Assembly (NCBI GenBank): GCA_025062195.1
Contig: JANXAS010000029.1
Span: 1-39,689, forward strand
DNA from: Armatimonadota bacterium
GTDB lineage: Bacteria > Armatimonadota > Fervidibacteria > Fervidibacterales > Thermosaccharophagaceae
DNA length: 39,689 nt
Direction: 5' to 3'
The notes under the pieces are model-generated. The model saw nothing but the letters and a program-made list of their open reading frames with translations, had not been told where the DNA came from and made no database searches. Positions 13,066 through 29,821 of the stretch are shown piece after piece (positions within the stretch are counted from its first letter, which is position 1; the number at the start of each line of letters is the position of its first letter). A program made the translations under genes and the position numbers.

Positions 13066-14961
13066 TCATCTTAGCATGAAATCGGTAAGCACCAAAACAG
13101 CATTAGCGACCAATCCACCCCAAATGCACCCGATGAAGAAAGGGCGAAATGATTGATAGCCTTCTAAACCCGCAAAACGCAGACTTAGTCCACGCAACAG
13201 CCAACCGAAGAAAAGTGAAAACCAATGGCTTTGCAGCGTTGAAGTGCTGCTCATAACGAATCCCAATGGCGAAATGTTCCACCAAAGGAAGTGCCGGTGA
13301 AAGTAAAGGAGAAATGCCATCACTGTTGCGCCGATGAGCATATTTTGCACGAAAGGCATATCTACACCGAAAGGTGCTGCCATCCAACTTCGCAATTTGT
13401 GGAAAGCCCAAGATGGCTCTTGTTGTGTGAACCATGCATTCAAGTTCAATGCACCCCAACGATGACAAAGCCAAAAGGTGAAAGGCAAGGAAATCGCTAT
13501 CGTGGCAAAGTAGCCAAATGCCAGGTTAAGAACGAACAAACGGATGGGAAATGGCGAAGATATTGCCATCTTAAAGCCATCCATCAAGTATGGCAGTGGT
13601 ATGGTCACTTGGTCAAACATGAACAACTGTTGCGGGAATGCCATGACCGTCAAGTCTCGCCATCCGACACGATGAACTCCAACAGTGCGCGCAATAATGT
13701 CCCAAGGCATGAATGAACATTCCACATTCATAATTCCACCAGCACTGACAGCACGAGTTAATACCAAATGCACTGCTGTCCAAACGGCAAAGAGGGCAAC
13801 AGCTGTTAGGAAACGCATCCCTGACAGGCAAAGAAGCAAGATCAGCACCAATGTGAGGGAGACCCAAAGAATTGGCAAATGAATCTGTGTTCTTGCCCAA
13901 TTTCGTCCTCTGCTCATTGTTTTCCTCAAAGCCGGCATCAAAAGCACCGCTGCTAAGATTAAAAAGCCACCTGCTTCTTGTGCTCGCTGCAAAGTCGTAA
14001 TGCCGCCTGTCCCAACACCGGGTGCGAAACCTCGCCAGCGTAAAATTAGCCGAACAAGCAAATGGACCAAATAAAAGCCCCAAAAACTGAGGGCTACTTC
14101 CGCGGGAATGATGAATCCGATGCCTAAAGAAGCGAAATTAAACACTGTTCGCTCACCCTGCCAGACATCAAAAGGGAAATCAACGAAAGCTTTACCCCAA
14201 GCAAATTGCAATGGCAATGATGGCAGGGAAGGAAAATGCTTGGCGAGACCATTTAAGGAGTGGACAAGGATGGGCAGCATAATGCCACAAAGTAACGGAA
14301 ATAAAGAACGCCTATTGTTGGGCATCACTACCGATTGCACAACTTGCACAGTCGGGAACGACAATTTCTCATCCACAATCCAGTGGCTGTGCAACCATAA
14401 GGCGAGGCAAAGCAAAGAGGCGAAGTAAATTGTGGCAAAAATTAGCCAAAAAGATGCCGGAAAAGCCCATGCCCAAAATTGCAAGGATGAAGAAGCGGGG
14501 ACACCCTCATAAAACGAACGCACTGCTGCTAAATCCGAGACGGCAAACCATGGCGGGATAAATGAGCCAAATAGTTCCTGCCATTGATTGGCAGGCGTAG
14601 AGAAGTAATGAAAAGTCGCCATCATTGGGAACAGAAACCCGCCAAACCCGCTGGATGGCAATGCTGAGCAAAAATGCCAAACACTGTATGCTAACAACAA
14701 ATCGCTACATGGGAAATTGAATCGCCATCGGCTAAGCAGTTTCCGGAAAGCCAAAGCCAACAACAATAAAGTCAGGGCAGAACTGGAAAGATGAGCCGAA
14801 GTTAGCCTTTGCTCCAAAACCAAATCGGCATAGGGCGTAACAATGGCGATAGCGACAATGCCAGCAAAGGTCATCATTAGTGTCGCAAAGGTTAAGCGTT
14901 TCTGTGCACTATCATGGCTATCTCTGAGCATCAAATCTTGCCCCGTTGATGCCGGGCACAT
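13066..14961 (-). CDS. polytopic membrane protein, DUF6785/OPT-like
   Basis: A 631-residue integral membrane protein with an estimated 13-15 hydrophobic helices. Internal features match the OPT-like DUF6785/DUF6784 family found in Armatimonadota and Planctomycetota: a loop with VDEKLSFPTVQVVQSVV (about residues 205-220), then FPFDVWQGERTVFNFASLGIGFIIPAEVALSFW, and a middle loop SAGGIMNVECSFMPWDII before TVGVHRVGWRDLT. The family is related to oligopeptide transporters, but its substrates are unknown. ATG 14961 has GGTGGTGAAGGA upstream; an in-frame ATG at 14931 lacks a visible site. The adjacent propeller/toroid gene suggests that a sugar or peptide product could be the cargo. That link is inference. 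Confidence 0.7.
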   Translation of the reverse strand: MCPASTGQDLMLRDSHDSAQKRLTFATLMMTFAGIVAIAIVTPYADLVLEQRLTSAHLSSSALTLLLLALAFRKLLSRWRFNFPCSDLLLAYSVWHFCSALPSSGFGGFLFPMMATFHYFSTPANQWQELFGSFIPPWFAVSDLAAVRSFYEGVPASSSLQFWAWAFPASFWLIFATIYFASLLCLALWLHSHWIVDEKLSFPTVQVVQSVVMPNNRRSLFPLLCGIMLPILVHSLNGLAKHFPSLPSLPLQFAWGKAFVDFPFDVWQGERTVFNFASLGIGFIIPAEVALSFWGFYLVHLLVRLILRWRGFAPGVGTGGITTLQRAQEAGGFLILAAVLLMPALRKTMSRGRNWARTQIHLPILWVSLTLVLILLLCLSGMRFLTAVALFAVWTAVHLVLTRAVSAGGIMNVECSFMPWDIIARTVGVHRVGWRDLTVMAFPQQLFMFDQVTIPLPYLMDGFKMAISSPFPIRLFVLNLAFGYFATIAISLPFTFWLCHRWGALNLNAWFTQQEPSWAFHKLRSWMAAPFGVDMPFVQNMLIGATVMAFLLYFHRHFLWWNISPLGFVMSSTSTLQSHWFSLFFGWLLRGLSLRFAGLEGYQSFRPFFIGCIWGGLVANAVLVLTDFMLR

Positions 14962-14990
14962 TGTTCCTTCACCACCGCTGATTCAAATCC

Positions 14991-15048
14991 AGCAAAACGA
15001 AATTTGTTTAATAGTGGCGATAGCTCGCCCGAAAAAGAAATTCAGTAA
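14991..15048. repeat. outlying units of the 40-43-bp repeat family
   Basis: Contains CAAAACGAAATTTGTTTA and CTCGCCCGAAAAAGAAATT, the same two blocks that alternate in the tandem array at 15462-15664. It lies directly upstream of the OPT-like membrane protein gene and is separated from the main array by the MITE-like element. Confidence 0.65.
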
Positions 15049-15125
15049 AGTTGGACGAATTTCGCTGAAAATGATAACCCTACAACCCTTTTGTGTAAAG
15101 TGGGCAATAACACATTAACCCGCTT

Positions 15126-15331
15126 GCTCTTTACTACAAATGTTGTTGGTGACTATTTTCCCAGCCATGCTATGGGCTTTAGCTCATAGTAGCTGACGAA
15201 TTTTTGAGCGCCGTTTTCAGACGGCGTAACTTTTTCGCCGAATAAATCCGGCGCTCGTAAATTCCTCATCAACCACTGGCAAAAGCCAGTGGCATGGAGT
15301 AAAGCATCAAAAAACTTTGAAGTAAAGAGCG
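15126..15331. mobile_element. MITE-like element, four consecutive hairpins, 9-bp target duplication
   Basis: Non-autonomous element of about 205 bp. The ends are inverted repeats, GCTCTTTACT (15126-15135) and AGTAAAGAGC (15321-15330), and AACCCGCTT is duplicated at 15117-15125 and 15332-15340, as expected of a target-site duplication. The interior is a series of short hairpins: GCTATGGGCTTTAGCTCATAG (slightly worn), CCGTTTTCAGACGG, CGCCGAATAAATCCGGCG and CCACTGGC-AAAA-GCCAGTGG. It encodes no protein. It is the reverse orientation of the copy at 25814-26019. The transposase family is unknown and no transposase lies in the window. Confidence 0.85.
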
Positions 15332-15461
15332 AACCCGCTTAAATTACTTTGATTAAATCCGTCTCCTAATCGCTTCTTAGAAAATGCAGCATTGGGGCTT
15401 AGCTATGGTGGAAGTTTGCGAGCATTGTCTGCAAGCGGCGGAGCTATAACAAGTTGTTTCA

Positions 15462-15664
15462 TAGGGTCGGGCAAAGTCTGCCAAAAACGAAATTTGTTCT
15501 TTAGGGTCGGGCAAAGTCCACCCGAAAAACGAAATTTGTTTGTAGGGTTAAACCAAGCCCATCCGAAAAATGAAGTTTGCTTGAATAGGTGGACGATAGT
15601 CTTTCCAGAAAGTGAAATTTGTTTTGTGGAGTCAGATGATGGTCTGCCCGAAAGACTAAGTCAT
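15462..15664. repeat. degenerate 40-43-bp tandem array, about five units
   Basis: Units begin near 15462, 15502, 15543, 15586 and 15627. Each runs TAGGGTCGGGCAAAGTCC, then CCCGAAAAACGAAATTTGTT, with decay from left to right. A 92-codon open frame (15392-15670) is only a reading of these units and is not called as a gene. The array ends where the left 96-bp inverted repeat begins. Confidence 0.8.
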
Positions 15665-15760
15665 GTTTGAACAAGTTTTGTGCCCTAAAGTTCTACAAAG
15701 TGTTTCGGTTGTGTTCAAGTTAAGCCCAATAAAGTTGAACAAGGTTTTGCGCAAGAAGCT
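15665..15760. repeat. 96-bp inverted repeat, left arm
   Basis: Reads GTTTGAACAAGTTTTGTGCC ... TGTGTTCAAGTTAAGCCC ... TTGAACAA-GTTTT-GCGCA-GAAG. The reverse complement of 16871-16966 has the same blocks in the same order, at roughly four in five positions by eye. This arm ends at the stop codon of the metallophosphatase gene. Confidence 0.8.
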
Positions 15761-16629
15761 TAATGGCTGCAAACATTGAAGGGATTTTCACCTTTACCTT
15801 CAAGTTTTAGTCTTTCCCCATTCATCCCGATGACAGTCGCCTTGACACTTTGCTCTTCAACTTCTATAGTGATGAAGTGATAGGCTTTCAAAAACGAGTC
15901 ACCTTTTTGGGAACGATTGGGGTCAAAGTCGTAAAGTGGTGCACCACCTCCTCCCGTGGTGATGTAAGTCACGCCTTCGCGTTTAGTCAGATAAAAGTGA
16001 TGGTCGTGACCGGTGAAAGCAGCGCAAATTTTGAGGCGATTGAAAACAGGTTGAAGGCGTCGACGAAATCTCTCAGCACTCGCTGCTCTACGCTCAATTA
16101 AGGTGAAAAGGGGGTGGTGAAAGACAACGAATTTGTGAAGTGATTTGCTTGCTCCCATCTCACGCTCCAACCAACGAATCTGTGCGTCGTCTTCAAGGAT
16201 GGAGTTTGAGTCTAAAATAGCGAAGTGAAGGTTGCCAAACTGAACCGAAAAATAATTTGGGTTGCCAGTGTTCGGCTTCAAATTCAATCGCTCAATCGCT
16301 TTCGCCCACAAGCCAGTTCCACTATCAATATCGTGGTTGCCCTTTGCTGGTATGTAAGGGATTTTCTCATCCATGATGGGCTTGATGATTTCAAAGAATG
16401 TCTTCCATTGCTCAGGGACACTGCCACGAGAAACCAAATCACCAGTGCACAAAATAAAGGCTGGCTTGAATTTGAGGATTTGAGCGACGATGGCTCTATG
16501 AACATCATGGTTGGTTCGGACATCGCCGTAAACTACGAAAGTCAATTTTTCCACGCCACTATGAGCAAACCAATAGACCAAACTTGCAAGGAGGAGTAAA
16601 AGTGTCCACAGCATCTGTCTTCGCTTCAT
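15760..16629 (-). CDS. calcineurin-like metallophosphatase, membrane-anchored or secreted
   Basis: Binuclear metallophosphoesterase with all the usual motifs (290 residues from ATG 16629): YGDVR (Asp36), TGDLVSRG (Asp64), KGNHD (Asn98, His99), FHHP (His171/172) and GHDHH (His208, His210). An N-terminal hydrophobic segment (residues 7-22) serves as a signal anchor, placing the enzyme outside the cytoplasm. ATG 16629 is preceded by GGGGTGAGCAGG; a longer in-frame start at 16737 would put 36 residues without family similarity ahead of the signal peptide. Motif order matches secreted purple-acid-type or Icc-like phosphatases. The substrate (phosphomonoester, phosphodiester or nucleotide) is unknown. 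The gene is bracketed by 96-bp inverted repeats, so it may have moved as a unit. Confidence 0.88.
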   Translation of the reverse strand: MKRRQMLWTLLLLLASLVYWFAHSGVEKLTFVVYGDVRTNHDVHRAIVAQILKFKPAFILCTGDLVSRGSVPEQWKTFFEIIKPIMDEKIPYIPAKGNHDIDSGTGLWAKAIERLNLKPNTGNPNYFSVQFGNLHFAILDSNSILEDDAQIRWLEREMGASKSLHKFVVFHHPLFTLIERRAASAERFRRRLQPVFNRLKICAAFTGHDHHFYLTKREGVTYITTGGGGAPLYDFDPNRSQKGDSFLKAYHFITIEVEEQSVKATVIGMNGERLKLEGKGENPFNVCSH

Positions 16630-16706
16630 CCTGCTCACCCCTGAGAAAATTTGCCCACTTTTTGCCCAATTTGTTCCGGATGTGCCACCATTTTCAAAAT
16701 CAATGT

Positions 16707-16735
16707 CGCTCTTTACTTCAAAGTGTGTTGATGGC
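16707..16735. repeat. solitary MITE-type terminal repeat
   Basis: TCGCTCTTTACTTCAAAGTGTGTTGATGG closely matches the ends of the elements at 15126-15331, 25814-26019 and 29641-29821. No partner end facing it is visible within 1 kb, so it is probably a remnant. It lies about 80 bp upstream of the metallophosphatase start. Confidence 0.55.
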
Positions 16736-16870
16736 ACAACCTACAAGGGCGTTTAAGTTTTTGCCCTCAGAGAAGAGAAGTGAATCTCATGGCTATGCCA
16801 CATCCGCTTAAAATCTTAGCCTCAAAAGAAACCTGTGTCAACATCCTTAGAAAGAGTTGTTGAATGATGA

Positions 16871-25720: not shown

Positions 25721-25813
25721 TCAATACCACCTCTTGCCGTCCGATTAATCGTGCAATTCCAAGTTTCATCATAATGCCAATGGTGTGATCAGGCAAGCTC
25801 AAAAGCTGCAATC

Positions 25814-26019
25814 GCTCTTTACCTCAAAGTTTGTCGGCGCTTTACTCCATGCCACTGGCTTTAAGCCAGTGGTTGATGACGGATTTACGAGCGCCGAATT
25901 TATTCGGCGAAAAAATTACACCGTCTGAAGACGGCGCTCAAAAATTCGTCAGCTACTATGGGCTAAAGCCCATAGCATGGCTGGGAAAATGGTCACCAAC
26001 AAAATTTATAGTAAAGAGG
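25814..26019. mobile_element. MITE-like four-hairpin element, best-preserved hairpins
   Basis: Ends are GCTCTTTAC (25814-25822) and GTAAAGAG (26011-26018). The interior holds four perfect hairpins: CCACTGGCT-TTA-AGCCAGTGG (25852-25872), CGCCGAAT-TT-ATTCGGCG (25892-25909), CCGTCT-GA-AGACGG (25921-25934) and CTATGGGCT-AA-AGCCCATAG (25956-25975). GAGCGCCG and CGGCGCTC could also pair around the middle two, and CCATGC and GCATGG around the whole set. The flanks GCTGCAAT and CCAGCAAT match at six of eight positions, a possible worn target duplication. It is the reverse orientation of 15126-15331, and lies in the divergent gap between the DJ-1 gene and galK, 83 bp before the galK start. Confidence 0.85.
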
Positions 26020-26102
26020 GCCAGCAATTAAAGCCCACTGACGGCAAATTGCTATATGCCAGAAATTGGAAGCTGACCGAGTTCAACGGCAGGTGACTCA
26101 GA

Positions 26103-29640: not shown

Positions 29641-29821
29641 TGCTCTTTACTACAAACTTTGTTGGGTATGTTCGCAGTTAGCCGCGATGTGAAAAACAGA
29701 GCAGCGTTAAATTGGTGCAAGTAGCGATGTTATCATTTTACTTCACTTCGCACTCGCTTTGACGGCACTTCGCTTTGCTTGGCGCCTTACTACGAACCAA
29801 CAAACTTTTGAGCAAAGAGCG
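29641..29821. mobile_element. element with MITE-type ends but a different core
   Basis: The left end TGCTCTTTACTACAAACTTT and the inverted right end (ACTTTTGAGCAAAGAGC, ending 29820) match the inverted repeats of the elements at 15126 and 25814, and also extend to GTTGG/CCAAC. The interior lacks the four hairpins and instead carries ACTTCGC-type short repeats (near 29755-29775). No open frame is present. The flanks AGGGTGTC and AATGTGTG give at best a partial target duplication. Confidence 0.6.

Follow-up and report, generated by a model that had tools for sequence, protein, structure and literature searches.

A four-hairpin miniature inverted-repeat element family in an Armatimonadota-related clade and its probable IS1595-type partner

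Bacterial miniature inverted-repeat elements (MITEs) are about 100-250 bp long, carry no transposase gene, have terminal inverted repeats and target duplications and are mostly intergenic; their transcripts are predicted to form stable stem loops, and insertions into other insertion sequences (ISs) occur (PMC2229807, PMC10969869). Members of the IS1595 family usually make 8-bp duplications, and an N-terminal zinc ribbon is found in most of its groups, the IS1016 group excepted (PMC8101967).

The stretch of DNA analyzed here (39,689 nucleotides, hereafter the window) belongs to an Armatimonadota-related draft assembly of 3.42 Mb in 170 contigs (G000) and contains an element that has in common with bacterial MITEs (RUP, Correia/NEMIS, ERIC, QMITE, Chunjie) its size, the absence of genes, inverted repeats, duplications, fold and insertion into ISs. 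The ends of RUP match IS630, whereas those of the window MITE match an IS1595-type IS. Unlike bacterial MITEs as a class, the window MITE has four local hairpins inside a palindrome of its whole length, and in some copies of its family the core is found in tandem. A literature search of partial coverage returned no paper linking Armatimonadetes with miniature inverted-repeat elements.

Boundaries and parts of the window copy

Direct reading of the window gives AACCCGCTT at 15117-15125 and again at 15332-15340, one element end, GCTCTTTACT, starting at 15126 and the other, AGTAAAGAGC, finishing at 15330. The preliminary description had delimited a 205-bp unit with these ends and a perfect 9-bp target duplication, which leaves over the G at 15331. 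Family-wide, the ends extend one base further, (C/T)GCTCTTTACT...AGTAAAGAGCG, also written CGCTCTTTACT...AGTAAAGAGCG, and duplications span 8 bp. Hence, the element occupies 15125-15331 on the + strand (207 bp; genome search and end-pair comparison), between two copies of AACCCGCT at 15117-15124 and 15332-15339 (direct reading and family end-pair comparison). Nine matching bases are indeed present, because the first base of the window copy is T, and not C as in most family copies, which adds one match by chance.

The left terminal inverted repeat, TGCTCTTTACTACAAATGTTGTTGGTG, lies at 15125-15151 on the + strand and the right one at 15305-15331 (CGCTCTTTACTTCAAAGTTTTTTGATG on the - strand), as located by end alignment; these 27-bp ends match at 21/27 positions, and their 26-nt arms are 81% complementary. 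Between them, the four consecutive hairpins of the preliminary description were recovered on the + strand, namely H1 (CTATGGGCTTTAGCTCATAG, 15170-15189, by folding), H2 (15209-15226, with a T run after it on the + strand and a terminator-like match at 15208-15227), H3 (CGCCGAATAAATCCGGCG, 15236-15253) and H4 (CCACTGGCAAAAGCCAGTGG, 15273-15292). Over its full length, the unit is imperfectly palindromic (142/211 identity to its own reverse complement) and contains no open reading frame (ORF) of at least 80 aa. It is flanked by two minus-strand genes, encoding a DUF6785/DUF6784 protein (13066-14961) and a metallophosphoesterase (15760-16737). A further dispersed repeat, AAAACGAAATTTGTT...TAGGGTCGGGCAAAGTC, with at least three copies, is found around the window MITE (14994-15019, 15451-15600), and similar stretches are present in other loci, e.g., L010.

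Dispersal of the family and evidence of movement

The copy census was based on searches and on retrieved stretches. A DNA search of the own genome with the window MITE returned 69 local matches, and about 30 of these cover nearly the entire element. With a 16-base end motif and up to three mismatches, 277 + 274 end-like sites were counted, and with the reversed pattern as control 48 + 46. The excess would correspond to about 450 genuine ends and about 230 elements. The genome-wide search proposed in the preliminary description therefore revealed a dispersed, multi-copy family. The MITE was also found in two of the four near genomes (same order), and neither in the other two nor in 56 further genomes of the phylum. 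Among named public genomes, the pattern matched the Armatimonadetes metagenome assemblies SKYB58 and SKW126 (G004 and G003, respectively). The H4 palindrome has 74 sites in G000, 56 in G004 and 14 in G003, with only scattered unrelated matches elsewhere. Judging by these searches, the family is confined to one Armatimonadota-related clade.

Two core types occur between common ends. Among 31 elements with good duplications, 20 have the four-hairpin core, nine a second core (146-312 bp) and two a unique one. Both types are present in the window, since a second four-hairpin copy, 92% identical and in opposite orientation, lies at 25813-26020 on the - strand (duplication 6/8, GCTGCAAT / CCAGCAAT) and a third MITE with the same ends and a different core at 29641-29821 on the + strand (duplication decayed to 5/8). 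The latter is a second-core MITE, as are those at L031, L033, L034, L045, L048-L050, L054 and L055; this type has an inner end-like motif, GCGCCTTACTACGAA.

Then, 66 end pairs in the retrieved DNA were compared for 8-bp duplications, the right-hand 8-mer being shifted by 1 to 3 bases as controls. At the true offset, 31/66 pairs matched at six to eight of the eight bases, and 12 of these were perfect, whereas at most 5/66 reached this level at the shifted offsets. The perfect duplications are 74% A+T. Besides, an IS on contig C128 of the own genome (G000:C128) is interrupted by a four-hairpin MITE with an 8/8 duplication, AACACTTT, while two related IS copies in G004, one of them 86% identical over 361 bp, are continuous at this point and hold a single copy of the AACACTTT site. 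On alignment, the uninterrupted copies are an empty site, in a comparison between related copies and not of the same locus in two strains. An empty site is proof of MITE movement, and the preliminary description had named this comparison as a check; the empty form was found here for the MITE inside the IS. The joined flanks of the window's own MITE, sought in four relatives, were found in the own genome only, so the orthologous site of this copy is not comparable. The earlier view that the element moved by transposition is thus borne out by its multiple copies with common ends, many of which independently show 8-bp duplications, by the empty site and by a transposase-bearing relative with the same ends.

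The candidate IS1595-type partner

The IS at G000:C128 spans CGTTCTTTACCTCAAAGTGTGTTGGTG to CACCAACAAATTTTTGAGTATAGAGCG, about 960 bp without the inserted MITE, and is broken. The single match to DDE_Tnp_IS1595 (PF12762) in the own genome is located in this contig (C128:11318-11680, E = 7e-12), and an uninterrupted G004 relative of the IS encodes Zn_ribbon_IS1595 (PF12760, E = 6e-7), both domain matches coming from degenerate copies. The presence of these two domains is in line with the IS1595 family (ISPna2, ISH4, IS1016, ISSod11, ISNwi and ISNha5 groups), which also has the 8-bp duplications in common with the MITEs. The IS boundaries recur, as several independent G004 remnants start or stop at the same points. 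Its ends match those of the window MITE at 20-22 of 27 positions. A ranking of the window by similarity to the IS left end puts its seven MITE/IS ends, and nothing else, in the first seven places. A degenerate IS1595-type left-end remnant, composed of the end CGCTCTTTACTTCAAAGTGTGTTGATG and the start of the transposase gene, is present at 16707-16862 on the + strand, with 79% identity to the G000:C128 IS and 24/27 matches to the IS end. This remnant overlaps the listed start of the metallophosphoesterase ORF, and the real start of that gene is probably further inside.

Unlike IS1595 family members, the MITE is gene-less. Its tips are CGCTC or TGCTC and not of the GG type seen in Merlin and ISApl4, a type that is not stated as required of every IS1595 group. 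The full-length, transposase-carrying relative that the preliminary description had suggested looking for was obtained in part: an IS1595-type IS with matching ends exists, but all copies detected are broken, and a search of the five nearest genomes gave no intact one. Around the long copy at C128, no duplication is recognizable (AACTCCTT / CATTTTGT). The IS1595-type proteins of other members of the phylum share about 30% identity; a strict script found no 8-bp-flanked matching ends around them. Comparison of the MITE core with the IS interior gave no similarity beyond chance, so the MITE did not arise from this IS simply by loss of interior sequence.

From the match between their ends, an IS1595-type partner is strongly indicated, and the MITE is very probably a non-autonomous DNA transposon moved by the transposase of such an IS. 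The IS1595-type DDE transposase, supplied by an IS with the same ends of about 27 bp, would bind both element ends and excise or copy the MITE, which would be joined to staggered target cuts whose repair would lead to the 8-bp duplication. The hairpin core would travel with it as a stable filler. With every IS copy found broken, we infer the mover from these remnants. If so, this large MITE family, from a phylum that has been little studied, can be assigned a named transposase partner, unlike many bacterial MITEs.

ISL3-family elements also show GGCTCTT-like ends and 8-bp duplications. The MITE could in principle belong to this or another 8-bp-duplicating DDE family whose transposase was lost, the IS1595 end match being coincidental; its ends and duplications fit this origin, as does the broken state of all IS1595 copies here. 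However, over 27 bp the MITE ends resemble the IS1595 remnant much more closely than the next-best matches of the window do. A search of five genomes for the ISL3 transposase domain (PF01610), a candidate suggested by the end sequence, gave no hit. The PF01609 transposases that adjoin MITE copies are not enclosed by MITE ends and were rejected as partner. We regard such an origin as very improbable and retain the IS1595-type partner. Remnants of other DDE-type transposases (PF01609/PF13612) directly adjoin MITE copies at L081 (G004:C111) and L082 (G000:C156), which may reflect insertion of MITEs into insertion sequences.

The hairpin core

As RNA, the window MITE strand folds at -94.9 kcal/mol (z = -9.4), and 0/200 dinucleotide shuffles fold as well. 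The preliminary description had taken a core made of hairpins to suggest a function of its RNA or single-stranded form. The four hairpins could indeed be a functional RNA or DNA module selected where it is inserted, through mRNA processing or stabilization, as a terminator or as protein-binding palindromes, the MITE being its vehicle; ends and spacers would then decay around preserved hairpins, and the core would multiply in tandem. The strong fold fits such a module, and Correia and ERIC elements, which act on mRNA, are a precedent (PMC10969869). Sequence divergence points in the same direction: in 23 older copies, the difference from consensus is 0.085 for H1, 0.092 for H4, 0.096 for H3 and 0.110 for H2, but the outer ends differ by 0.218 and the spacers by 0.212, and nearest-neighbor differences are 0.088 for H1/H3/H4, 0.119 for the outer ends and 0.175 for other positions. 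In addition, H2 with its T run resembles a terminator in 15/24 copies. If true, the element would act on transcripts or chromosome structure at each of its landing sites in the clade.

However, an end is missing from several of the aligned copies, a truncation that inflates end divergence, and all copies were recruited by similarity to the window copy. Rare substitutions, which are probably recent, have about the same frequency in the hairpins (0.009-0.018) as elsewhere (0.011-0.020). For these reasons, the lower hairpin divergence is read as conservation among source elements and not as clear selection after insertion. Covariation in the four local hairpins did not rise above chance across 32 aligned copies, with 91.2% of cells paired vs. 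91.4% after shuffling and 3 double changes vs. 3.6 expected. The long-range helices of the two ends showed a modest excess (20 double changes vs. 12), which relatedness among subfamilies can explain. One subfamily lacks the T run after H2. In an Rfam search of 14900-15600, all matches were to eukaryotic families, below threshold and attributable to chance. Moreover, stable folding is the norm in bacterial MITEs (PMC2229807, PMC10969869). The proposed function found no support in these results, and a selected hairpin module is improbable. A strong predicted fold is here told apart from evidence of selection on the fold, two things that are often conflated.

In some copies, [H1-H2-H3-H4] repeats in tandem with a period of about 157 bp, which makes an origin of the core from duplicated palindromic pieces probable. 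Tandem core arrays were found at L137 (G004:C277), L138, L144, L020, L018, L016 and L129, most with this period and with no end repeats between units. Palindromic repeats and tandem clusters of this kind resemble REPIN clusters (PMC3116915), and the H4 palindrome is amplified only in this clade. Like REPINs, with their repeated palindromes, doublets and tandem clusters, the hairpins might be REP/REPIN-type palindromes spread by RAYT (Y1 tyrosine transposase) and captured by chance between IS ends. Unlike REPINs, the MITE has 8-bp duplications and fixed ends, which RAYT movement is not known to produce. Y1_Tnp (PF01797) was not found in the MITE-carrying genomes G000, G003 and G004, and G001, the sole near genome in which it occurs, lacks the repeats. 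REPIN spacers show compensatory changes (PMC3116915), whereas the MITE hairpins are without covariation. RAYT/REPIN was thus rejected as an origin that is extremely unlikely. At L010 (1001-1667, G000:C124), a four-hairpin MITE is split by a stretch of different repeat DNA, about 450 bp long, and the outer duplication of this MITE still matches at 7/8 bases.
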